A stretch of 64,000 nt of DNA from K189A clade bacterium (lineage in GTDB: Bacteria > Pseudomonadota > Gammaproteobacteria > Pseudomonadales > Azotimanducaceae). Numbering within the stretch: the stretch's first letter is position 1; the number at the start of each line of letters is the position of its first letter. A model generated the notes under the pieces. That model worked only from the letters and a program-made list of their open reading frames with translations. It made no database searches and was not told the origin of the DNA. The stretch is taken from NCBI GenBank assembly GCA_902631405.1, contig CACOYI010000003.1:1-64000 (forward strand), given 5' to 3'. Shown here one piece after another: positions 6,274 through 29,341 of this stretch. The translations under genes and the position numbers were made by a program.

Positions 6274-8046
6274 TTGAAAAACTCTCGAGAAGCTGAAACT
6301 TCTCAAATCATCGATGCTAGAGCAGCGCTTGCAAATTATGTTAAAGCGGTGGCATCCGGCGATATTGAGAGTCAACTCAATTTTTTCTCCGAGTCATGGG
6401 TTACCGGTTCTGGTCGAACGAAAGAGGATGTGCGTCGCTCTCTAGCTCATGGAGACTCTGAAAAACCCGGTAGGGATAAAACCTTTGACTTTGAAGACTC
6501 GAAGATAACGATAGACGGCGGAAAGGTGATATTTGACCCCGTTATCAATCGATCGGGCGGATTATTCGAGATCATAATGCAGGAAGAGAAAGACGGTGTT
6601 TGGCGCTGCACGTTTTTGGGTCCCACTCGGGCTGTCGATACGCTGGCAGAGGGAGGAAGAGAGGCGAGGGAAGCTCTATTGGAGGATCCATTCAGACCGA
6701 CTTTTCATTTTGTTTGCCCTGAAGGGATCGCAATGCCGTTTGATCCGAACGGTGCCATTTATTGGCGGGGGCGCTATCACCTTTTCTATATATTTCAAGA
6801 CAGTCGATCGGGTGTGCGCTCTGATCATTGGGGGCATGTTTCAAGCGCCGATCTTTTTCATTGGCGTCACCATCCCACGAGTCTGATAGATGGGATGTAC
6901 AGCGGGAATTGCTTTGTTAATCGAGAGGGTATCCCTACGATTTGCTATCACCAGGTCGGTTTGGGAAATTCGATAGCTATATCTCTCGATGAATCGTTAG
7001 ATCGATGGGAAAAGCTAGAGTCCAATCCTATTACTCCCCATACCGTGGAGGGTGACCAATATCACGGAAAATATTCATCCTGGGATCCGTTTGCCTGGGT
7101 CGAAAAGGAAAATTATTACGCGATATTCGGGGGCAGTCGTCCAGCCATCGTGAAGTCTAAAAGATTGGATGGTGAATGGAATTACGTGGGTGACTTGTTT
7201 GCTCATGGAATCGAGGGAGTTGACCCAGAGGAAGACGTGTCATGTCCTGAATTATTCCCCCTTGGAAGTAAGTATGTGCTCTTGTGCATCAGTCATCGTT
7301 TAGGTTGTCGTTATTACATCGGGGATTGGAGAGACGAAAAATTCTATCCTGAAACGCATGGCTCGATGAGCTGGGTAGATAATAGTTTTTTCGCTCCTGA
7401 GAGCCTGTTGGACGATAAGGGGCGTCGAATCATGTGGGCCTGGATTATGGATGAGCCTCATTTCGGGGTACGAATAAAATCCGGTTGGTCTGGCACATTG
7501 AGTTTGCCGAGAGTTTTATCTTTGGATGAAAATTCGAATTTAATGATTGAGGTTCCTCAAGAGGTCGAGAGTCTTCGATACGGTGAGTTTTCTGTATCAG
7601 AGCGCTCAATTGGCTCGGATAGAGACCTGTTGATTGAGGGTCTTTATGGAAACCAGTTGGAGATCGAATTAGAGCTGAGTTCAGATGATGCGGAGTCTTT
7701 CGGCATCAAAGTTTGTGTCTCTGAAACAGGAACCGAAGAGACCCTGATAGGATACGACTACCGAGCTAGCAGTCTGTTTCTGGATACTTCAAATTCTGGA
7801 CCCCAGAACACGCCCAAGGCGGTTGAATCGGCACCTCTCTCGCTGGCCTTGGGGGATCCTCTGCATCTGCGCATCTTTGTTGATCGTTCGGTCGTTGAAG
7901 TATTTGCCAATCGAAGACAAGCGATCGCTAGGCGGATTTATCCTGCTGAAGCCGCGAGCTTATACGTAAAACTTTTCAGTAGAGGGGGTGATACTAGGCT
8001 TACTTACCTAAAGTCTTGGAAGATTCATCCGTCTAACGCTTCCTAA
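6274..8046 (+). CDS. GH32 beta-fructofuranosidase-like enzyme with N-terminal NTF2/SnoaL-like domain
   Basis: Predicted cytoplasmic glycoside hydrolase; no signal peptide is seen. Residues about 15-120 resemble an NTF2/SnoaL-like fold (DARAALANYVKAVASGDIESQLNFF). The GH32 five-bladed propeller follows: FDPNG gives the nucleophile Asp157, SSWDPF replaces the usual RDP motif and supplies Asp271, and VSCPE supplies the acid/base Glu326. The C-terminal beta-sandwich contains the typical LRIFVDRSVVEVFANR segment. The family cleaves terminal fructosyl units from sucrose, inulin or levan. The Arg-to-Trp change in RDP and the added domain suggest an altered substrate. The TTG start is chosen because GGAGGAGG stands about 7 bases upstream. 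It leads the rightward receptor gene. Confidence 0.88.
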   Translation: MKNSREAETSQIIDARAALANYVKAVASGDIESQLNFFSESWVTGSGRTKEDVRRSLAHGDSEKPGRDKTFDFEDSKITIDGGKVIFDPVINRSGGLFEIIMQEEKDGVWRCTFLGPTRAVDTLAEGGREAREALLEDPFRPTFHFVCPEGIAMPFDPNGAIYWRGRYHLFYIFQDSRSGVRSDHWGHVSSADLFHWRHHPTSLIDGMYSGNCFVNREGIPTICYHQVGLGNSIAISLDESLDRWEKLESNPITPHTVEGDQYHGKYSSWDPFAWVEKENYYAIFGGSRPAIVKSKRLDGEWNYVGDLFAHGIEGVDPEEDVSCPELFPLGSKYVLLCISHRLGCRYYIGDWRDEKFYPETHGSMSWVDNSFFAPESLLDDKGRRIMWAWIMDEPHFGVRIKSGWSGTLSLPRVLSLDENSNLMIEVPQEVESLRYGEFSVSERSIGSDRDLLIEGLYGNQLEIELELSSDDAESFGIKVCVSETGTEETLIGYDYRASSLFLDTSNSGPQNTPKAVESAPLSLALGDPLHLRIFVDRSVVEVFANRRQAIARRIYPAEAASLYVKLFSRGGDTRLTYLKSWKIHPSNAS

Positions 8047-8178: not shown

Positions 8179-10872
8179 ATGAAAACAACTGAGTTTCGAA
8201 GTCATGGTTTCTTCGCGAGGGTTCTGGGACCGCTGGTAATACTCGGAACGTTCGCTGGTTTTTCTTGGTCCGATGAGGATGAAGGTAGTGAATACTTTGA
8301 AGAAGTGATCGTTACCGCGGAGCGGAAAGAGGAGAATGTCCTAGATACGCCTATGACGTTGACCGCGTTCAGTTCAAGCATGCTAGAGCAGCTTGGTATT
8401 CAGGATCGAGATAAGCTACAGAATCTAGTGCCGGGTCTTCAATTTGGTGATACCGGAGACCAGGAGGGTAATGGTACGACACTTCGCGGTATAGGAACTC
8501 GTGTGGGCGGAATCGAGCATCGTGATCGTTCTGTCGCCACCTATATAGATGGAGCCTATACAGTCGGTGTCTACGGCACCGCACCTGGAGGAGGATTCGA
8601 TCTCGAACGTGTTGAAGTAGCCAGAGGGCCTCAAGGAACGCTGAATGGACGGAACTCGATAGCTGGCTCTATAAACTACGTATACAAGAAGCCATCAGAT
8701 GAGTGGGATGTTGATGTCATGGCGCAGGTGACGGATGTTTCCCAACAGCGGTTTAATGCGGCGATCGGTGGACCTTTGATGGAAAACTTAAGCTTCAGAA
8801 TAACGGGTGGTGTCTATACTGGAGACGGATATCAGGAAAACGTTGGTATTGGACCGGATCACGCGAAGCCTGATCATCAGTTTTATGCGGGCCAATTAAG
8901 GTTCAAGACTGACCGGTTTGACTCAAATCTACGTTATTCCTACGTACAAGATACGGGTGTTCCTCGTTCTCTTGTTCAATTAGCTAACTTGAATACGACG
9001 GATGAAAACTTTGTACAGGCTGGCGCTTATTCGATCGGGACTCCTCCGCCCAACTTGGCTGAAATTGAAAACGTGGCGCATTTATATGCAACCCAGAATC
9101 CTGCTGGTCCTGCGGATTGCCCAGTGGGTCGTCCGTACATGCATTGTGGAAATGGAGAGATTTCTAACAAGGTGGCGCTCAATTACTTGGGCTATGAAGA
9201 TAGCAGCGCGGAGGGTATCAATTTTTACGCGCAGTATGATTTAACCGATACCATCACAGTTAAATACACATTCAATGATAGAGATACGAATCAGATGAAT
9301 GTGAAAGACGCCGATTACATGAATCGGTATGCAGTTGCGGGCGGAGATCATACGATTGCATCAGACGGTGGTGCGAGACTTAGAGATCGTTTCTATGAGC
9401 TCCCTTATCAGTATGAAGAGACTTCTCATGAGTTGTTGGTCACGGCTGATGTAAACGAGCGGCTAACCGTCATTGCGGGCTATTTCCAGTATGAAAACGA
9501 TAGCTACTGGGCGATTGTGAGAAACGAAACAACCGCGGATTTTAGATACGGCACGGCGGACTTCTGGGCACAAGAAGCATCCCCGGTTTTCGGTTTCCTA
9601 CCGGTATCTAGTTGTCAGGAGTTTCTCGAGGTGGGTCTAAGAGATACCTTTGGCTATTACATAGATCCTGTTGAGGCTAAAGCCAATGGGCAGTCCTATT
9701 GGTGGTGCCCAGAAGGCGATGAACATACAAGGATCGTTAACTATCAGACATCAGCCGAACAGGAATCAGAAGCGATATTTTTGAACGCGGATTATGAGAT
9801 AAACGATAAGTGGGCGGTCTCCGCTGGTATACGAACTCTTGAGGATTGGAAATATCAAGGTCCGTTGGGACAAGGTGGGGATTACACCCTCAGCTTCGGT
9901 GGAGCTCTTGTCACTGTAGGATATCAAGATGGTGGTTTTGACAAGCCTCATACGTGGGATGCTGTTGTAGGCCAATTGACGGCGGAATACACCACAGAGG
10001 GTAATAACCTTCTATACGCACGTTTTTCCACGGGTCATAAGGCTGGTCAGTTTAATCTTTTGTCGACGGGAACTAGTGGGATTGATCCTGTAGTGGATGC
10101 GGTTGAACTAGATAACTATGAGCTTGGAAGCAAGGGCACCTACCTGGACGGGCGCCTTCAGTTGGCGGTGGGTGCGTTTTTGATGGATTACGATGGATTC
10201 CATTTGTCTGCATTACAACCCCTTACTGAGGGTTCGACGGTAGGCGTGTGGGAGCCTTCTCCACTTCCTGAATATACGGCGAACGTTCCTGGAACCACCA
10301 TTTGGGGTCTTGAGATCGAATACAACTATGCGATGACCGATAATCTGAGGTTCATGGGCTTCTATGCCTACCAGGATTCAGAGATTGGGCCCCATGAGTC
10401 CGTAGTCAGGGGTGATCCAGATGCAGGATATGCTTTGTGGGATCACATTGATTTTGATACGGGAGAGCCCGTTCAAAGCTATTACACGCTGCCAATGGAT
10501 CAGACGGGTAATCAGCTTCCTAGTCAGCCCAACCACAAGTTTGCAGCGACGGGTGTATATGATATCGATCTCGATGCTGACATGGGATCTTTGTCATTAT
10601 TGACGACATACTCTTTCACTGGCTATCAGTATCCAACAATCGCTAACATCGATTTGTATAAAGTCGATGGTTATCATCGGGTTGATGCATCGGCTATATG
10701 GACCTCTGCCGATGAGACAATTTCAGCGACATTTTTTGTTAACAACGTATTTGACAAGATTGGCCTGAATGAGTTCGTCGCGGTTAGTGGGCTTGGTGAG
10801 CAGGTATTCCTCGGGATGCCAACGAATCACAGAGAGATGGGTCTCACGATTCGATACAGACCATCTATATAG
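8179..10872 (+). CDS. TonB-dependent outer-membrane receptor
   Basis: 897-residue outer-membrane active transporter. It has an N-terminal signal-peptide-like stretch (LGPLVILGTFAGFSWS), a TonB box followed by the plug (EEVIVTAERKEENVLDTP, about residue 40), plug motifs such as VEVARGPQGTLNGRNSIAGSINY, and a long beta-barrel with alternating aromatic strands ending in LTIRYRPSI. Such receptors in proteobacteria import oligosaccharides, siderophores and vitamins. No SusD partner is present. Placement between two GH32-linked gene groups points to a fructan or fructosylated compound, which is inference. The barrel contains Cys-bearing loops (DCPVGRPYMHCG, SSCQEF, WWCPEG). GAGGGAGAG precedes the ATG. 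Two hairpins follow the stop codon. Confidence 0.92.
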   Translation: MKTTEFRSHGFFARVLGPLVILGTFAGFSWSDEDEGSEYFEEVIVTAERKEENVLDTPMTLTAFSSSMLEQLGIQDRDKLQNLVPGLQFGDTGDQEGNGTTLRGIGTRVGGIEHRDRSVATYIDGAYTVGVYGTAPGGGFDLERVEVARGPQGTLNGRNSIAGSINYVYKKPSDEWDVDVMAQVTDVSQQRFNAAIGGPLMENLSFRITGGVYTGDGYQENVGIGPDHAKPDHQFYAGQLRFKTDRFDSNLRYSYVQDTGVPRSLVQLANLNTTDENFVQAGAYSIGTPPPNLAEIENVAHLYATQNPAGPADCPVGRPYMHCGNGEISNKVALNYLGYEDSSAEGINFYAQYDLTDTITVKYTFNDRDTNQMNVKDADYMNRYAVAGGDHTIASDGGARLRDRFYELPYQYEETSHELLVTADVNERLTVIAGYFQYENDSYWAIVRNETTADFRYGTADFWAQEASPVFGFLPVSSCQEFLEVGLRDTFGYYIDPVEAKANGQSYWWCPEGDEHTRIVNYQTSAEQESEAIFLNADYEINDKWAVSAGIRTLEDWKYQGPLGQGGDYTLSFGGALVTVGYQDGGFDKPHTWDAVVGQLTAEYTTEGNNLLYARFSTGHKAGQFNLLSTGTSGIDPVVDAVELDNYELGSKGTYLDGRLQLAVGAFLMDYDGFHLSALQPLTEGSTVGVWEPSPLPEYTANVPGTTIWGLEIEYNYAMTDNLRFMGFYAYQDSEIGPHESVVRGDPDAGYALWDHIDFDTGEPVQSYYTLPMDQTGNQLPSQPNHKFAATGVYDIDLDADMGSLSLLTTYSFTGYQYPTIANIDLYKVDGYHRVDASAIWTSADETISATFFVNNVFDKIGLNEFVAVSGLGEQVFLGMPTNHREMGLTIRYRPSI

Positions 10873-11037: not shown

Positions 11038-13077
11038 ATGGCTCAATTAACTCAAGACTATAAAGATAGAGTTTATGCTGGTGTATTGGGGAAGGTAATT
11101 GGTGTTTATTTGGGAAGGCCTTTTGAAGGTTGGCCCTACGATTACATTCAAAAGCAACTCGGAGACATTGAATATTACGTGCACGATAAATTAGATGTGC
11201 CTTTGATCGTCACCGATGATGACATTACAGGAACTTTCACTTTTTTGAGGGCTCTGGAGGATCACGGAAATAATCCTGATCTGAGTGCGCGGGAAATCGG
11301 ACAGAGTTGGCTAAATTACCTCATCCGAGAGAAAACGATTCTCTGGTGGGGGGGGTTAGGGAATTCCACAGAACACACGGCATATATCAGGCTCGCGAAC
11401 GGTATTGACGCGCCCAGAAGTGGATCGATGGAATTAAATGGGAAAGTTGTGGCCGAGCAGATTGGCGCTCAGATCTTCATCGACGGATGGGCAATGGTAT
11501 CTCCAGGCGACCCAGATCAAGCGGTTAAGTTTGCAGAGGCCGCTGCAAGAGTAAGTCACGACGGAGAGGCTGTATACGGCGCTAAGGTACTGACCGCCAT
11601 GGAGTCTATGGCTTTCGTTGAAAGAGATATACAAAAGCTTATTGATTTGGGACTATCTTATATCCCCTCGGACTCTGTCATCGCCCGTATGATAAGTGAT
11701 CTGAGAGAGTGGCATGCGACAGAGAGTGATTGGCGCGCAACACGAGAACTCTTAGCCGCGACTTATGGATATGATAAATATGGGGGTAATTGCCACATGG
11801 TCCCTAATCACGGCTTGATAATTCATTCATTACTCCATGGGGAAGGTGACTTTTCGGAAACGCTCAAGATTGTTAACACCTGTGGTTGGGATACCGACTG
11901 CAACTCCGGGAACGTGGGCTGCCTGATGGGAATATTGGTAGGAGTTGAGGGAATAGACGCTGGGATGAACAAAGGTCTTGACTGGAGAGGTCCTGTGGCT
12001 GACCGCCTTTATGTTCCGACTGCCGATGGAGATAGAGGTATAAGTGACTGTGTCAGGGAAGCTGGCCACATTATCGATATGGGACATGCTTTAGCCGGCG
12101 AAGCGGCATTTCGTCCAAAAAATGGTGCTCAATTTCACTTTTCTTTTCCTGGCTCAGTTCAAGGGTTCCAGGTTCAGGTGGGCGAGGGTGAGATAACTAA
12201 TGTTGAGCTTGGAGATGCCAGAGGTTTGAAGTTAGTGGGCAAAGAGGGTTCACGAATTGGCTCGCCGGTATTTATTCCTTCGAAAGAAATCGGAGAACGT
12301 TTCGAGAAGCGAGGCTATGCGCTTCTGGCTTCCCCCCGTTTGTTTCCGGGCCAAACCGTTGAGGTTGGAGCAAACGGCTCCGATGCATCAGTCTATTTTG
12401 CTTACTACGGAGAAGATGATGAAGTAAGTTATATCGAGATACCCCTGGAGATATCCGGCACTACCTCACTAGAGGTGCCGAATTTACCGGGTCCGATATT
12501 TGAGTTGGGTATCTTCTTTCATAAAGACTCATCGGTCACTCTGGACTTTGTTAAGTGGAGTGGTGCACCGAGGTTCGTTGCAGAGCGACCAAAACATAAA
12601 GGCACCATGTGGCGAAAAGCTTGGGTGAACGCTGTGGATGAATTGGTGGGTTGGTCAGAAATGTTCCGAGTGATCCAAAATGATGGTTTGGGAATGATTA
12701 GCCAAGGCACGCAGGACTGGCAGGATTATAAAGTCCATGCCGATGTTATCCCTCACTTAGCGAAACGGGCCGGTCTTGCGATAAGAACACAAGGTCTAAC
12801 GCGTTTCTATGGCCTGCTGGTTACTGTGGAAGGCACTGTTCAGTTGATCCGTAAAAATCACGATGAGACAGTACTCGCCGAGGCTTCGTTTGATTGGTCG
12901 TTTGGTGAAACCCTTAATATGTCTCTAAGTGCGAAGGGGGATCATTTGACGGCCTCGATTAATGGAACTCAGGTTTTAGAAGCCACTGACTCGACTTTAA
13001 AGGGCGGTGCGGTAGGGATAGTGATTGAAGAAGGGAGAAGCGCAACCAACAAGGTAAGTGTCGAGCCAGTCTCCTAA
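11038..13077 (+). CDS. ADP-ribosylglycohydrolase-fold protein with C-terminal beta-sandwich domains
   Basis: The N-terminal 340 residues match the all-helical ADP-ribosylglycohydrolase (DraG/ARH) family: an early metal-binding VTDDDITGTF (Asp60-62) and a late GWDTDCNSGN (residues 283-292). The family normally cleaves ribofuranosyl bonds with a dinuclear magnesium centre. Here the domain is followed by about 300 residues of beta-rich sequence. The last 160 (GTQDWQDYKVHADV ... GLAIRTQG ... GGAVGIVIEEG) look like a LamG/DUF1080-type jelly roll, common in carbohydrate-active proteins. At 679 residues it is about twice a normal ARH. It sits next to the fructokinase, 22 bases away. I infer that it acts on a sugar-furanoside rather than on ADP-ribosylated protein; this is unproven. 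Confidence 0.82.
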   Translation: MAQLTQDYKDRVYAGVLGKVIGVYLGRPFEGWPYDYIQKQLGDIEYYVHDKLDVPLIVTDDDITGTFTFLRALEDHGNNPDLSAREIGQSWLNYLIREKTILWWGGLGNSTEHTAYIRLANGIDAPRSGSMELNGKVVAEQIGAQIFIDGWAMVSPGDPDQAVKFAEAAARVSHDGEAVYGAKVLTAMESMAFVERDIQKLIDLGLSYIPSDSVIARMISDLREWHATESDWRATRELLAATYGYDKYGGNCHMVPNHGLIIHSLLHGEGDFSETLKIVNTCGWDTDCNSGNVGCLMGILVGVEGIDAGMNKGLDWRGPVADRLYVPTADGDRGISDCVREAGHIIDMGHALAGEAAFRPKNGAQFHFSFPGSVQGFQVQVGEGEITNVELGDARGLKLVGKEGSRIGSPVFIPSKEIGERFEKRGYALLASPRLFPGQTVEVGANGSDASVYFAYYGEDDEVSYIEIPLEISGTTSLEVPNLPGPIFELGIFFHKDSSVTLDFVKWSGAPRFVAERPKHKGTMWRKAWVNAVDELVGWSEMFRVIQNDGLGMISQGTQDWQDYKVHADVIPHLAKRAGLAIRTQGLTRFYGLLVTVEGTVQLIRKNHDETVLAEASFDWSFGETLNMSLSAKGDHLTASINGTQVLEATDSTLKGGAVGIVIEEGRSATNKVSVEPVS

Positions 13078-13099: not shown

Positions 13100-13999
13100 A
13101 TGGTAGCGCATCAACTAAGGATCGCCGGAGTTGGTGAAGCCCTTTGGGATGTTTTTCAACATAACGAAGAGTTTGGGGGGGCACCCGCGAATTTTGTATC
13201 TCATTGCAGTATGTTGGGAGAGCGAGGCTATCTGGTGAGCGCGCTCGGTTCGGATCATAGGGGCCAGCTCGCGGTGCAGCATCTTACAGAGCTGGGAGTG
13301 GATATAGAGCATTGCGTAATAATCGATGGCGTGGAAACTGGGGTCTCGTCTATAGCGCTTGATTCAAAAGGAGACGCAAAATACGAAATCAGAGAGAACG
13401 TTGCCTGGGACAGAGTGTGTTACGACTCGAATTTATATCCTTTTTTCCAATCTTTGCACGCCATCTGTTTCGGAACGTTAGGCCAAAGGACAGTGAAAGC
13501 GCACCTCGAGACGATGAAGATGCTCTCAGCAACAAAGCGTGAATGCGTAAAGTTCTTCGACCTGAATCTCAGACAAGATTTTTATACGATGGAAGTTATT
13601 TCCCAATCGTTAATTCACTCAAATATCGTGAAACTTAACGAAGACGAATTGGGAGTATTGTCTAAGCTCTCGCCGGTGAAGGGTTCAGACGAGGCAATCG
13701 TGGATGATCTGATTAAACGATTTAAGATTAATTTAGTGGCATTGACCTTGGGTGAGCGAGGCTCCGTGTTAATGTCGCAAGAAGGCAGGTATGCAGAAGG
13801 CGCTTGCGACGTCGAGGTTGTGGATACCGTTGGTGCTGGAGACGCCTTCTCTGCTGTAATGGTAATCGGATATCTAAGGGATTGGAGTCTGAGTCGAATA
13901 AGCAGGGCGGCGAACGGATTAGGTGGTTTTGTTTGTTCAAAACCAGGCGCCACGCCGCGTTTGTCTCGTGATTTTCTAGAAGGTTTCAGTGGGGAATAA
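13100..13999 (+). CDS. PfkB-family carbohydrate kinase, probable fructokinase
   Basis: 299-residue ribokinase-superfamily enzyme, probably phosphorylating D-fructose to fructose 6-phosphate with ATP in the cytoplasm. The N-terminal sugar-binding motif GGAPANF starts at residue 26, and the C-terminal ATP/anion-hole motif DTVGAGDAF is at 242-250 with catalytic Asp248. The opening GEALWDVF and the GGAPANF variant are typical of fructokinases of this family. GAAGGGA precedes the ATG. It lies 22 bases after the ARH-fold gene, 39 bases before a flavin oxidoreductase, and in the same locus as two GH32 enzymes, which supports fructose as substrate. Related kinases act on ribose, inositol or adenosine, so the substrate is inferred. 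Confidence 0.85.
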   Translation: MVAHQLRIAGVGEALWDVFQHNEEFGGAPANFVSHCSMLGERGYLVSALGSDHRGQLAVQHLTELGVDIEHCVIIDGVETGVSSIALDSKGDAKYEIRENVAWDRVCYDSNLYPFFQSLHAICFGTLGQRTVKAHLETMKMLSATKRECVKFFDLNLRQDFYTMEVISQSLIHSNIVKLNEDELGVLSKLSPVKGSDEAIVDDLIKRFKINLVALTLGERGSVLMSQEGRYAEGACDVEVVDTVGAGDAFSAVMVIGYLRDWSLSRISRAANGLGGFVCSKPGATPRLSRDFLEGFSGE

Positions 14000-14038: not shown

Positions 14039-14953
14039 ATGGAATTTGGAGCGCAGTTGGGTCTCTATGGAACGAATTACTGGTCAAATATTAGGGAAAC
14101 AGTCGAGGCACTAGACGCGGGTAGATGGAGCAGTATTTGGTTCCCGGATCATTTTATGCCACCGGGCAATCCCGATGCCGGGCATGGACACGCCTTAGAA
14201 GCTTGGACCATTTTATCTGCCATCGCATCCATAACGAGTAGGGCTAAGCTTGGGATTCTCGCGACCGGCAACACCTATAGAAATCCAGCGCTGTTAGCGA
14301 AGATGTGCGCCTCATTGGACCACGTGACGGATGGACGCATGGTTCTTGGTTTGGGAGCTGCCTGGTATGAACGAGAGCACCTCGCATATGGGTGGGAGTT
14401 CCCACCGTTAAAAGAGAGAAGTGACAGATTAGAAGAAGCCGCCGAATTAATACGGCTGCTCTTTACCAAAGCAGAGGACGAGTACGTATCTTTTAATGGT
14501 AATTTTTATAGGTTGGATGAGGCTCCATTGACTCCTGGATCAACTCAAAGCCCTCACATACCCATCCTAATTGGAGGGAATGGGGAGAAACGAACACTGC
14601 GAACGTGTGCCAAATTTGGAGATCAATTTAACCTGGACTTTTGGCATCCGGGCGGAGTGGATGTGTTTAAACATAAGAGTAAGGTCGTGGAGGAACACTG
14701 TGAGTCTGTGGGGAGGGACCCATCGGAGGTGAAACGCAGCGTCTGCCTACCTTTTCGCCTTTTTGAATCGGAGAACGATTTCCGGGAGGCGCAGGGTCAA
14801 CCTTGGTACTGTTGGGGAACTACGACAATGATCCAAGACACCTTGGGCGAGTACATTGAAGCTGGTGCACAGGAGATAATGCTTTGCGCTATCCCAGCGA
14901 AGCCAAGTGCCTGGCAACGGGTCGAAGAAGAAGTTCTATCCGTTTTTAGTTAG
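14039..14953 (+). CDS. Luciferase-like (LLM class) flavin-dependent oxidoreductase
   Basis: 304-residue TIM-barrel enzyme of the bacterial luciferase-like superfamily, which uses reduced FMN or F420. Typical segments are present: GRWSSIWFPDHFM, GHGHALEAWTILSAIA, LGILATGNTYRNPALLAKM, VLGLGAAWYEREH and IPILIGGNGEKRTL. It carries no signal peptide. A good Shine-Dalgarno (GACGGAGG) precedes the ATG. It is the last gene of the rightward run ARH-fold/fructokinase/oxidoreductase and is followed by a hairpin before the convergent Rph-like gene. Its presence in a sugar operon is unexpected and suggests oxidation of the non-sugar part of the imported compound. The substrate is unknown. Confidence 0.85.
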   Translation: MEFGAQLGLYGTNYWSNIRETVEALDAGRWSSIWFPDHFMPPGNPDAGHGHALEAWTILSAIASITSRAKLGILATGNTYRNPALLAKMCASLDHVTDGRMVLGLGAAWYEREHLAYGWEFPPLKERSDRLEEAAELIRLLFTKAEDEYVSFNGNFYRLDEAPLTPGSTQSPHIPILIGGNGEKRTLRTCAKFGDQFNLDFWHPGGVDVFKHKSKVVEEHCESVGRDPSEVKRSVCLPFRLFESENDFREAQGQPWYCWGTTTMIQDTLGEYIEAGAQEIMLCAIPAKPSAWQRVEEEVLSVFS

Positions 14954-18817: not shown

Positions 18818-20179
18818 ATGGAAAGTCCCTCAGAGTTGCATCGCCCACAATTCCACTTCACGGCTAAAGAAAATTGGATTAACGATCCAAACGGCCTCGT
18901 CTGGCAGGCAGGGCGTTGGCATCTGTTTTTCCAGAGAAACCCAGAGTCCAACGTTTGGGGGAACATGACATGGGGGCATGCCGTGAGTGAGGACCTTTTG
19001 CACTGGGAGCAGCTGGAAGATGCCTTACGTCCAGATAGCCTAGGCACAATGTTCTCGGGATCGGCAGTGATAGACCGCCGTAATTCAGCGGGTTTCGGTG
19101 ATGACACCATGCTGATCTTTTATACGGCAGCTGGTGAATTTGTGGATCCTTCAGCGAAACACACCCAATGCTTGGCTTATAGCTTGGATGGGGGCAATAC
19201 TCTAAAGAAATTTGAGGCTAATCCGGTAATTCCCTGGATGGAGGGAGCCAATAGAGACCCTAAAGTTGTTTGGCATCCGCAGTCTGACAGCTGGATTATG
19301 GCATTGTATCTGAAGGATGATCGTTATTGTCTTTTGAGATCTCCGGACGCAAAAAATTGGGAGAGATTTCAGGACATATCGCTGCCCGGCGTCACAGAAT
19401 GCCCTGATTTTTTTCAACTAGAGGACGATGAGGGAGAGTTCTATTGGATATTCTGGGGTGCCGACGGTAAATATTTGTTGGGCACATTCGATGGCGATCG
19501 TTTTGATCCGATCACCGATGCCATCGTCTGCGAACAGGGTAAAAATGGTTACGCCGCGCAGACCTGGTCTAATGCACCGGATGGCAGATGTATTCAGATT
19601 TCTTGGATGGCGGGAGGGAAATATCCCGATATGCCTTTTAATCAGCAACTTTCTATTCCTGTTGAGTTAGAGCTGGCAGGCACTGGTTCCAATGCTCGTC
19701 TCATTCGCCGACCCATAAAAGAGCTCGATTCGCTTCGTGGCCGTAAAGAAACCATCGATTGCATAGCGGTTTCTCGAGGAAAATCGTATGAGATGGATTT
19801 GGTTGGCAAATGTTTTGATGTTTCTTTTGAGCTTGAAGCCGGCGATGCCAAAGTGGTTTATCTGACTGTGCGAGGAGAGTGGTTCAAGATAGACTGGGAA
19901 TCGTTTGAACTCTCTGCATTCTCCGGAGGCGCCACCAAAAGCTCTCAGCCAAATAATCCAACTGTTTTTCTGCCGCGAGGCCAGCGGATGTCCTTTCGAT
20001 TCATTATAGATACTTGCTCAATAGAGATCTTTGTGAACGGAGGAGTTGTTTCTGCTTCTTTTTGTTTTCTGGCCGATGGTTATGAGTACCCTCTAGTTTT
20101 TAATACTTATGAGGGGACTCAAAAAATAAAAAATATCGAATGTTATGAACTTCTATCTTCTTTAGTTGCACACGAATAA
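18818..20179 (+). CDS. GH32 beta-fructosidase (levanase/invertase type)
   Basis: 453-residue canonical GH32 enzyme, probably releasing terminal fructose from sucrose or fructo-oligosaccharides. All three catalytic motifs are textbook: WINDPNG (nucleophile Asp23), NRDPKV (Asp147) and ECPDFF (acid/base Glu194), with FSGS at 80. A short C-terminal beta-sandwich ends in SIEIFVNGG. There is no signal peptide, so hydrolysis is expected in the cytoplasm after uptake. It differs from the NTF2-GH32 at 6.3 kb in having intact RDP and no extra domain, so the two probably act on different bonds. The phosphoesterase and ABC pair B follow on the same strand. Confidence 0.93.
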   Translation: MESPSELHRPQFHFTAKENWINDPNGLVWQAGRWHLFFQRNPESNVWGNMTWGHAVSEDLLHWEQLEDALRPDSLGTMFSGSAVIDRRNSAGFGDDTMLIFYTAAGEFVDPSAKHTQCLAYSLDGGNTLKKFEANPVIPWMEGANRDPKVVWHPQSDSWIMALYLKDDRYCLLRSPDAKNWERFQDISLPGVTECPDFFQLEDDEGEFYWIFWGADGKYLLGTFDGDRFDPITDAIVCEQGKNGYAAQTWSNAPDGRCIQISWMAGGKYPDMPFNQQLSIPVELELAGTGSNARLIRRPIKELDSLRGRKETIDCIAVSRGKSYEMDLVGKCFDVSFELEAGDAKVVYLTVRGEWFKIDWESFELSAFSGGATKSSQPNNPTVFLPRGQRMSFRFIIDTCSIEIFVNGGVVSASFCFLADGYEYPLVFNTYEGTQKIKNIECYELLSSLVAHE

Positions 20180-24901: not shown

Positions 24902-25621
24902 CTACGCGCTATCTGGGCGATTTGCGGCAAGAAGAGTTTCCGAGGACTTCCCATAATAAAAGAATGTGATGGCTCTTCTCTCACGATCCGTCTGATTGTC
25001 TCCAGACCAATGAACAGTCTGTGCATGATGCACTATTGCGTCACCGGCTTTCACCTCAATCATTTGCGCGCCATCAGACGCATCGTTATATCCGGTGATA
25101 TTCAAATTCTTATCATGACGCTTTTTATGACTACCTTTGGCGTAGAAAAGGCATCCATTTTCCCGATCCATCTGGTCAAGGGCTATCCAGAGCGTAATGC
25201 CTGCCTTCGGGTGCCAAGGTCTACCTGCTGCGTCAATGTGAGGTGATATTCTCTCAGGTGTTCCCGGCGGACGATCGACGAAAGCGGTGCTAACTGGCCT
25301 GAGTTCATCCTCAAGAAGTGAGGCTAGAAGAGGAAGGTGAGACCCCTGATGAGCTTCTCTACTCAACCATTCTGAATAATTTTGCAGTCCCTTCGCAGCT
25401 AAAAGGTATGATTTGGGTGCGCCCCTAAAGTGTTCTTCACGGTCTTTAAGCATTTTTTCTTTGGCGTCTCTGCCCTCTATTAGTAATGAGTTGATTTCTT
25501 CGTCTCCACCGAATCCCTTTAGATGTACGAACCCATTTTGTTTAAATGCTTTCTGTGTATCACTGTCTGCAGTGACGGAACCAAAATCCAGCGCTGGACG
25601 GTAAAAAGCTTTTTCTTTCAT
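24902..25621 (-). CDS. Phytanoyl-CoA dioxygenase (PhyH) family Fe(II)/2-oxoglutarate oxygenase
   Basis: 239-residue non-haem iron oxygenase. The facial triad is visible as HIDAAG (His-x-Asp) and the distal His in VHHAQTVHWSGD, with Arg in DRERRAITFF for 2-oxoglutarate. The segment ITLWIALDQMDRENGCLFYAKGSHKKRH is typical of PhyH proteins. Hydroxylation of an aliphatic or secondary-metabolite substrate is expected. Its ATG overlaps the stop of the upstream ARH-fold gene by four bases (ATGA), so the two are coupled. PhyH proteins act on many substrates, so the target cannot be named. In this locus an aglycone is the natural guess. Confidence 0.87.
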   Translation of the reverse strand: MKEKAFYRPALDFGSVTADSDTQKAFKQNGFVHLKGFGGDEEINSLLIEGRDAKEKMLKDREEHFRGAPKSYLLAAKGLQNYSEWLSREAHQGSHLPLLASLLEDELRPVSTAFVDRPPGTPERISPHIDAAGRPWHPKAGITLWIALDQMDRENGCLFYAKGSHKKRHDKNLNITGYNDASDGAQMIEVKAGDAIVHHAQTVHWSGDNQTDRERRAITFFYYGKSSETLLAANRPDSA

Positions 25622-27443: not shown

Positions 27444-28073
27444 ATGTTTGAAATTGATATGGAGGCTATAGAGCCAATTGGGGAGTTTGGTTCGAGGGCT
27501 TGGTGTGATGCTTGTGCGAGTTATGGTGTAAAAATACTCGAGGCAGCAGACCTGCCAGGGGACCTCAATTGGGGGTTTAGCGAGCTATATACCTATCCAC
27601 CTGATCGATTGATATCTGAAGACTGGTCTCAATCTGGCTATCACTTTATGGTGAAGGACGGCGTAGTGTCTGGTGGGGCTTCTGTACCCCAAACCTGTCT
27701 GGATCAGGAAGGCTTCCATGCGAAAATACGCTGGGCATACATTTGCAATCAGTCAGCTACAAAATATGGCAGCGCCGGTCAAAGGAAGAGAAGCGAACAA
27801 GAGGCAGTGCTGCTTTCGCAACTTACGGATTTTTTAGGCTTTACGCCGGAAATGGGTGGAGTTCCCAATGCCGTCTGGCCTGCCCCAATAGTAAAAGCGT
27901 TAAGTGTCGGTGTAGAGGAGGGGGCAGGGCTTCATAATATCGCGGCCTCTTTGCAGAGTCCGTCTCCGGAATTTGTCGGCTTGCCGACCACCGATATGGG
28001 TGTGCCCGATTTTTCCAGTATGAGCGATAAACAAAGATCTGAATTCCTAAAGTTATGTGGTCTGCAGGAGTAA
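27444..28073 (+). CDS. Hypothetical protein, family not recognised
   Basis: 209 residues, soluble, no signal peptide or membrane segment. A strong Shine-Dalgarno (GGAAGGAGGAGAG) precedes the ATG, and codon use looks coding throughout, so the gene is probably real. It contains four Cys (WCDACASYG, TCLDQE, YICNQ and KLCGLQE at the C-terminus) and a central region, WGFSELYTYPPDRL ... GYHFMVKDGVVSGG, that I cannot assign. Two copies of the recurrent GGGTGAA motif lie just upstream and one just downstream. It precedes the transposase-like gene by 80 bases on the same strand. No function is proposed. Confidence 0.7.
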   Translation: MFEIDMEAIEPIGEFGSRAWCDACASYGVKILEAADLPGDLNWGFSELYTYPPDRLISEDWSQSGYHFMVKDGVVSGGASVPQTCLDQEGFHAKIRWAYICNQSATKYGSAGQRKRSEQEAVLLSQLTDFLGFTPEMGGVPNAVWPAPIVKALSVGVEEGAGLHNIAASLQSPSPEFVGLPTTDMGVPDFSSMSDKQRSEFLKLCGLQE

Positions 28074-28153: not shown

Positions 28154-29341
28154 GTGAGCATTGCTAGTTTCTGTGATGAACTGATCTCGGATGGTGCAGG
28201 TTATCGTATAGGAAGAGTTCGTGAGAAATTTCTCAGATCAATGCTCATTGGGATCGAGCATGCAGATTCACTGAATTTGACGAGTATTGCCGGAGCGCTA
28301 GATGAAGGCATTCGGCTGCACGCCACTCAGAAAAGGCTGTCACGGAATCTGGATGACCAAGTATTGTTCGACTTTCTGCAAAATCGTCTCCTGTCCTTGG
28401 CCACAAGTGATGTGTCCGATGATAGCTGGTTAGTGGTTCACACCTATTCCCTAGAGAAAAGGTATGCGAAGAAAATCGAGTATCTTGGGCCCACTGGGAG
28501 AGAGTTAGATCATGGGTTTAAGGTGTGTGAGGTTCTGGCGATCAAACCTGAAAAGAGAGTTTATAAACCGCTAGTGACCCACGTTTGGTCAAATAAGATC
28601 CCTGATTTTGAAAGTGATTCAAGCGAGGTCGCAAAAACGCTTGACCGGGTGCTTGATGCCACTGGCAATAAGGGGCTCGTTTTTTTTGATGACCAGTCGG
28701 TGGGCGCAGACCTGGTGGAATTTTTGATAAATCGACGAGCTTTTGATTACTTTTCAATGATGCCGAGTGACGACGCAAAGGTCGTTCATAGAGATGAGGA
28801 ATGGGTTGTGCGAGAGCTGTTTGATCAAATAGAGACCAAATATGGCAGAACGATGTTTAAGCTGGTCCCCGAGGGCATGCTAGCTAAGGGGAAGATAGAT
28901 CTCGATTTATTTCTTCATGCTGGTGCTCTGGGTGTGAAACGCGTCAATGATTCGAGGCGGCTCACCCTGATTGCGCTGAGGGCAAAGACCAAGCGCTTGG
29001 GGGAAATTTCTATTCCAATCCTGACGACTAAAATAGGCTTGAGAAGCCGAAAATCTCTCATGGGTTTGGTTGAATCATTTTTGTCAATTCAGGATGTAGT
29101 CTCTCTGCACCAAGAGGTTAGAGCGCGTTTTCGTCCAGAAGAGTTTCGGGTATTAACTTACCGGCGATTGCGTTTGCTTTTTAGCCTATTACAGGCTGTC
29201 ATTTTTTATCGGATAGAATCGAAAAGTTCTCCTGTGATTGAAATTCCTAATTTTGCTGACCAACCTCATACAGGAGAGCTGGACAGAACTTATCTCATGC
29301 CTCGCAAAATTGATTCTGAACAGGAGAGGCGAGTTGATTAG
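28154..29341 (+). CDS. IS4-type transposase-like protein, probably inactive or domesticated
   Basis: 395 residues with the overall pattern of IS4-group DDE transposases: a helical N-terminus (NLTSIAGALDEG ... QKRLSRNLDD), a beta-strand where the first catalytic Asp should be (LVVHTYSLEKRYAKKIEYL), a DRGFD-like position (GLVFFDDQSVGADLVEFL), and a C-terminal helix pair (EEFRVLTYRRLRLLFSLLQ). In the first block the usual Asp positions read His and Ser, so transposition activity is doubtful. No terminal inverted repeats or target duplication are evident. It starts at GTG, and its stop overlaps the esterase start by 8 bases, so it behaves like a resident operon gene. The family call rests on pattern recall and could be wrong. 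Confidence 0.55.
   Translation: MSIASFCDELISDGAGYRIGRVREKFLRSMLIGIEHADSLNLTSIAGALDEGIRLHATQKRLSRNLDDQVLFDFLQNRLLSLATSDVSDDSWLVVHTYSLEKRYAKKIEYLGPTGRELDHGFKVCEVLAIKPEKRVYKPLVTHVWSNKIPDFESDSSEVAKTLDRVLDATGNKGLVFFDDQSVGADLVEFLINRRAFDYFSMMPSDDAKVVHRDEEWVVRELFDQIETKYGRTMFKLVPEGMLAKGKIDLDLFLHAGALGVKRVNDSRRLTLIALRAKTKRLGEISIPILTTKIGLRSRKSLMGLVESFLSIQDVVSLHQEVRARFRPEEFRVLTYRRLRLLFSLLQAVIFYRIESKSSPVIEIPNFADQPHTGELDRTYLMPRKIDSEQERRVD

Follow-up and report, generated by a model that had tools for sequence, protein, structure and literature searches.

A gene in the 64,000-nucleotide stretch of DNA analysed here (the window) encodes a three-part protein of 679 residues with an ADP-ribosylglycohydrolase (ARH) fold, which on balance is probably a cytosolic two-metal (Mg/Mn) glycosidase that cleaves a small imported furanoside and whose freed sugar is phosphorylated by a PfkB-type kinase. 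The protein is apparently cytosolic. A small furanoside would be imported into the cell, the ARH-fold enzyme would hydrolyse it there with its two metals gripping the sugar's cis-diol in the manner of ARH3, and the kinase would then act on the released sugar. We infer the hydrolase activity and the furanosidic bond. The features discussed below are collected in Table 1.

Table 1 Features of the ARH-family gene and its surroundings (window positions; residues are those of the 679-residue protein).
Feature	Position	Strand	Basis or remark
GH32 family protein a, upstream	6274..8046	+	EC motif reads SC
TonB-dependent receptor, upstream	8179..10872	+	Pfam
Three-part ARH-family protein	11038..13077	+	679 aa, no visible signal peptide
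ARH catalytic domain, residues 1-345, all-alpha	11038..12072	+	Pfam PF03747; Foldseek
E30, equivalent of the Glu-flap glutamate (Glu41 in ARH3, Glu28 in DraG)	11125..11127	+	invariant, 54/54
D60-D61-D62, first metal motif (canonical T-D-D)	11215..11223	+	invariant, 54/54; DraG/ARH3 alignment
WWGGLGNSTEH, residues 103-113, family-specific insert and motif	11344..11376	+	alignments
EQIGAQIFID, residues 140-149, in place of the GN(G)AxMR loop	11455..11484	+	alignments
GWDTDCN, residues 283-289, second metal motif (D285/D287)	11884..11904	+	Cys at the canonical Thr
Linker and middle beta-sandwich, residues 346-540	12073..12657	+	predicted structure, strands 378-516
C-terminal CBM66/GALC-lectin-like beta-sandwich, residues 541-679	12658..13074	+	profile and fold matches
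PfkB fructokinase-like kinase	13100..13999	+	22 bp downstream of the ARH gene
LLM-class flavin/F420 oxidoreductase, same direction	14039..14953	+	Pfam, NCBIfam
GH32 family protein b	18818..20179	+	NDPNG, RDP and EC motifs intact
PhyH-type dioxygenase, shared island	24902..25621	-	island comparison
Second ARH-family protein, 542 aa	25618..27246	-	33% identity over the ARH core

The N-terminal part of the protein matches the Pfam family ADP_ribosyl_GH (PF03747) over residues 15-308 and model positions 2-286 of 287 (E 6.7e-57), and Foldseek comparison of this domain with the PDB returns MJ1187, DraG and ARH3, with TM-scores by target mostly of 0.65-0.79. These matches bear out the preliminary description, which had recognised an ARH-fold protein in this gene. 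The AlphaFold2 model of the whole protein has a mean pLDDT of 94 and a pTM of 0.94 (alignment n=54), and no NCBIfam model matched the sequence. Among 84,980 species genomes scanned, there were at least 576 relatives. The best 80 of these, which were kept, include members from Gammaproteobacteria, Chloroflexota, Acidobacteriota, Deinococcota, Bacillota, Armatimonadota, Thermomicrobiota, Poribacteria, Bacteroidota and one alphaproteobacterium. Along its whole length, the protein keeps this architecture of three parts. Copies from the same genus are 56-95% identical, and plasmid copies in Rhizobium, Agrobacterium, Ensifer, Deinococcus and Enterobacter are 31-49% identical. With full-length relatives at 31-95% identity in many phyla, the observation as a whole is confirmed and does not arise by chance. 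On the Enterobacter hormaechei plasmid pMB8072_1 (IncFIB/IncHI2A), the gene lies in a cassette of LacI, ARH and solute-binding-protein genes with no permease genes annotated alongside, surrounded by genes of a normally chromosomal type (fur, fldA, nagBA and glnS).

All 54 aligned members share residues E30, D60, D61, D62, D285 and D287, which align with the Glu flap and the metal ligands of DraG and ARH3, whose roles have been described (PMC7050489); E30 is also invariant in a diverse alignment (A3). Few parts of the protein are as conserved as the metal core of the ARH domain. Two metal-ligand positions are non-canonical: Asp60 stands for the Thr of T-D-D, and Cys288 for the final Thr of D-T-D-T. 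The metal-binding core had been described as intact, which holds for the Asp ligands and E30 but not for these two threonines, and their replacement counts against the proposed furanosidase. The family also carries an inserted motif of the form WWGGxGNSTEH at residues 103-113.

According to the family name, the protein would be an ADP-ribosylhydrolase or an O-acetyl-ADP-ribose hydrolase, and its clear membership of PF03747, with a conserved two-metal core, agrees with this. However, none of the 54 aligned members has the ADP-ribosylhydrolase loop GN(G)AxMR, which reads GNG-A-MR in DraG, ARH3 and YegU but CGAAMR in MJ1187, and EQIG[AS]QIFxD occupies its place. The adenine site is contacted by Phe143, Ser148 and Tyr149 in ARH3 and by Glu121 and Tyr212 in DraG (PMC7050489, PMC8319183), and Phe143 and Ser148, but not Tyr149, are required for ARH3 activity (PMC8319183). 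We compared these adenosine contacts by profile alignment rather than atom by atom, and in the profile alignments counterparts of Phe143 and Ser148 of ARH3 and of Glu121 and Tyr212 of DraG are not evident. Residues 121-146 contain no aromatic residue in 50 of the 54 members, as read from a profile alignment rather than a ligand-bound model, and DraG Tyr212 aligns near the family-invariant His253 in the profile alignment. Since the loop is lost and the adenine contacts are not evident, the sequences suggest that ADP-ribose is unlikely to be a substrate of the family. In relatives the gene also lies in carbohydrate-import operons, and we regard hydrolysis of ADP-ribosyl compounds or O-acetyl-ADP-ribose as very unlikely.

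Two beta-sandwiches follow the ARH domain. The middle one spans about residues 375-516 in the predicted structure and is absent from the preliminary description. The C-terminal one has the fold of the CBM66 of Bacillus subtilis levanase (TM-score by target mostly 0.81-0.82, rmsd 1.7-2.0 Å). CBM66 is the top PDB match of a 16-member profile (E 5e-6), and a deeper 54-member profile weakens this match to E 1e-3. Mouse galactocerebrosidase, which has a lectin domain, is the top PDB structure match by E-value but has a low TM-score, and the Pfam galactocerebrosidase C-terminal lectin domain is matched by 20 of the 54 members. A LamG/DUF1080-like domain had been reported at this end of the protein. 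The beta-sandwich is real, but the DUF1080 match (3keto-disac_hyd, PF06439; residues 559-656, E 0.084) is below threshold, scoring 13.3 bits where the cut-off is 26.8, and we reject this identity in favour of the CBM66/GALC-lectin-like one, which matches better. PF06439 reaches E<0.01 in three of the 54 members, and SDR genes adjoin several relatives; both would suit a C-terminal domain that is itself catalytic, of the 3-keto-glycoside hydrolase type, with the ARH domain as an accessory. Given the conservation of the ARH metal core and the better match of binding modules (CBM66, GALC lectin) to the C-terminal domain, such an arrangement is highly improbable. As for the sugar, the CBM66 of SacC binds fructose ends, and another CBM66 binds modified xanthan and neither levan nor inulin (PMC11002231). 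Therefore, a CBM66 match is no proof of fructose binding.

Outside Gammaproteobacteria, the gene recurs in operons with LacI and a CUT1 ABC importer, often alongside a PfkB kinase gene. The gene order in rhizobia, Chloroflexota and Bacillota is LacI, a solute-binding protein, two CUT1 permeases, sometimes a second ARH gene, and then the ARH gene, after which a PfkB kinase or UgpC ATPase gene may come. In two rhizobial loci (L040 and L044), 28 and 4 bp separate the permease gene from the ARH gene, which in turn overlaps the ATPase gene by 4 and 1 bp. The importers resemble the CUT1 class and have binding proteins of the SBP_bac_1 type, a combination typical of oligosaccharides. Annotated plasmid loci agree with the importer-operon pattern. 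Eight loci were dissected gene by gene (L081, L087, L089, L118, L131, L134, L040 and L044), and we limit the following statement to them: no other glycosidase was seen in these operons, and no other enzyme gene of any kind in the predicted operons except for a second ARH gene in L131. Of 92 loci, 35 have CUT1 permeases and 18 have PfkB kinases within four genes of the ARH gene. Both rates exceed those for genes farther away in these loci, although the loci are related by descent and the enrichment p-values are therefore optimistic. By gene position, the near-enrichment of LacI and UgpC is not significant over the 92 loci. The CUT1 context requires 15 changes on the tree and the PfkB context 8, so the operon context is not one frozen block.

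As the gene lies in importer operons in its relatives and ARH is often their sole enzyme, cleavage of an imported sugar compound is more likely than removal of ADP-ribosyl groups. Importer operons without another glycosidase, the conserved metal core and the absence of GN(G)AxMR together make a catabolic glycosidase the best reading. The earlier idea that this ARH-fold enzyme acts on a sugar furanoside and not on an ADP-ribosyl group thus has strong circumstantial support from the importer and kinase operons, and also from the missing loop and the CBM66-like domain. On the other side, no CUT1 neighbour is found in the window's own clade (35 sequences from Pseudomonadota and Acidobacteriota), where the gene is often among unrelated genes. 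We therefore carry the operon argument over to the window by inference.

The kinases bear on which sugar is released. Four of ten tested neighbour kinases (L085, L124, L128 and L135) pass the ribokinase equivalog cut-off, with 335-373 bits against 299.65. Those of L036, L042 and L073 score 254-291 bits with ribokinase as their best model, and a GGKGANQ or GGKGGNQ motif backs the ribokinase type for all seven; the kinases of L090, L110 and L111 fit no assigned class. In Chloroflexota loci, many of the kinases are of neither the ribokinase nor the fructokinase class. ARH catalysis relies on the cis-2'',3''-diol of ribofuranose, which ARH enzymes hold (PMC7050489). This chemistry and the ribokinases in relatives favour ribo-configured furanosides for the family, so that a ribofuranoside or other cis-diol furanoside is somewhat more likely family-wide than a fructofuranoside. 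The kinase in the window speaks against the ribofuranoside type, as it is fructokinase-like and not ribokinase-like. Substrates may have diverged within the family, and the window copy may serve a fructose-containing compound.

The ribokinases that adjoin several relatives could also belong with a nucleoside hydrolase or similar N-ribosyl-type enzyme that releases ribose from N-ribosides, on the model of Escherichia coli yegTUV, in which the same logic of transporter, ARH protein and PfkB kinase is predicted (PMC10819704). YegU is just remotely similar, its own function is unknown (PMC10819704), and the oligosaccharide-type importers described above do not suit such a substrate; we consider an enzyme of this kind rather unlikely.

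The preliminary description had also named a fructokinase next to the ARH gene, which was a good call. The best solved match of this kinase is the fructokinase 2qhp (E 3e-46), with 161 bits against 70 for the next match, and it carries a GGAPANF motif, although no NCBIfam equivalog cut-off is reached. The ARH-fold enzyme had been proposed to be a fructofuranosidase, whose freed fructose the kinase would take. The adjacent fructokinase-like gene, the two GH32 genes in the locus, the syntenic GH32 genes across the genus and the relationship of the C-terminal domain to the fructose-binding CBM66 of levanase are in line with this proposal, but the support does not extend beyond the local neighbours. 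Beyond the window, only its sister at 95% identity has a kinase gene of this type next to the ARH gene. GH32 genes are within four genes in just 2 of 92 loci and close only in the window's genus, so we reject the GH32 association as a family-wide signal. The locus already holds two GH32 genes, one with intact motifs, and relatives have true ribokinases. Moreover, the ring diol of D-fructofuranose, the 3,4-diol, is trans, and the sugar offers no cis-diol for the ARH metals. Taken together, we consider fructofuranosides unlikely substrates. A GH32 identity for the 679-residue protein itself was likewise rejected, as it has an ARH fold and not a five-bladed propeller with NDPNG, RDP and EC motifs; the GH32 proteins are separate neighbours.

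The surroundings of the gene form a syntenic island that recurs in the genus (~1547-29341 in the window). It contains two GH32 genes, the ARH gene and the second ARH gene, four ABC exporter genes, PEP-synthase-like, PhyH, SDR and LLM oxidoreductase genes, a YfcE-like phosphoesterase gene and two genes for conserved hypothetical proteins (27444-28073 and 28154-29341), among others. GH32 genes occur in nine genomes of the genus, including that of the window; seven of these have a close ARH orthologue, and the remaining two, which are 64-75% complete, carry the second ARH. One relative's island additionally holds a xylulokinase, a PfkB kinase, a 3-oxo-tetronate kinase-like gene, a class II aldolase, a sugar-acid dehydratase-like gene and a sulfatase, a content that fits complex-sugar catabolism but does not name the sugar.

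Several other proteins of these islands are worth noting. In GH32 protein a, the nucleophile motif DPNG is kept, whereas EC (the acid/base Glu) has become SC and RDP has become WDP, across eight aligned orthologues (that of the window and those of L045, L137, L140, L143, L145, L147 and L148). Judged by these motifs, protein a may be non-canonical or inactive; it also has an N-terminal extension of ~130 residues without a Pfam match. The second ARH protein is conserved in the genus and has its own IGAQIRAD-type motif and a C-terminal region without assignment, and a third ARH protein of the genome is encoded on another contig (G000:C26). Near GH32 in the island of genome G588 (L137, 2711-4069), a 452-residue protein without a Pfam or NCBIfam match begins with a sequence (KHPANPLFGEDHSWERRFDNLYGN) reminiscent of five-bladed-propeller glycosidases.

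Many bacterial genes are named ADP-ribosylglycohydrolase from their fold alone. In the limited full-text literature covered, with few subscription journals and preprints, no precedent was found that links ARH proteins to sugar-furanoside hydrolysis, and a LacI regulon survey does not mention ARH. Cleavage of a sugar compound by this protein would be a little-explored second use of the ARH fold. As a tentative extension, it is possible that the family of at least 576 members consists of genuine glycoside hydrolases that act on small imported furanosides and form a two-metal class with a fused binding module. If so, the family would deserve its own glycoside hydrolase family and genes labelled 'ADP-ribosylglycohydrolase' would have to be broadly reinterpreted, as such labels would mislead signalling studies and conceal a type of glycosidase with an unusual metal mechanism. 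It would also become possible to test directly what cassettes of ARH, kinase and transporter genes do, E. coli yegTUV (PMC10819704) among them.

Structural comparisons place the family close to known ARH proteins. It shares the fold, the Glu-flap glutamate and the Asp metal ligands with MJ1187 (1t5j), DraG (2woc) and ARH3 (2foz, 6d36). Unlike these proteins, it lacks GN(G)AxMR, has D-D-D for T-D-D and D-T-D-C for D-T-D-T, and possesses the WWGGxGNSTEH insert, two extra beta-sandwiches and a carbohydrate-operon context. The C-terminal domain has the same fold as the CBM66 of levanase SacC (4azz, 4b1l, 4b1m) and a detectable profile match to it, but the two are only 17% identical, and the domain of the window protein is joined to an ARH domain, with no signal peptide visible on the protein. 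E. coli YegU (L153, 4096-5100) is likewise an ARH protein encoded between a transporter and a PfkB kinase, in a cluster whose function is stated to be unknown (PMC10819704) and which includes a predicted nucleoside symporter and a sugar kinase. It is a single-domain protein that matches the window protein with 28.9 bits over 39 residues, and its transporter is of the MFS type, whereas the relatives' operons have an ABC importer. The plasmid proteins of Rhizobium, Agrobacterium, Deinococcus and Enterobacter annotated as 'ADP-ribosylglycohydrolase family protein' have the same three parts at 43-49% identity over 99% of the length; these lie in LacI/CUT1 operons, whereas the window gene lies with a TonB receptor and GH32 genes.
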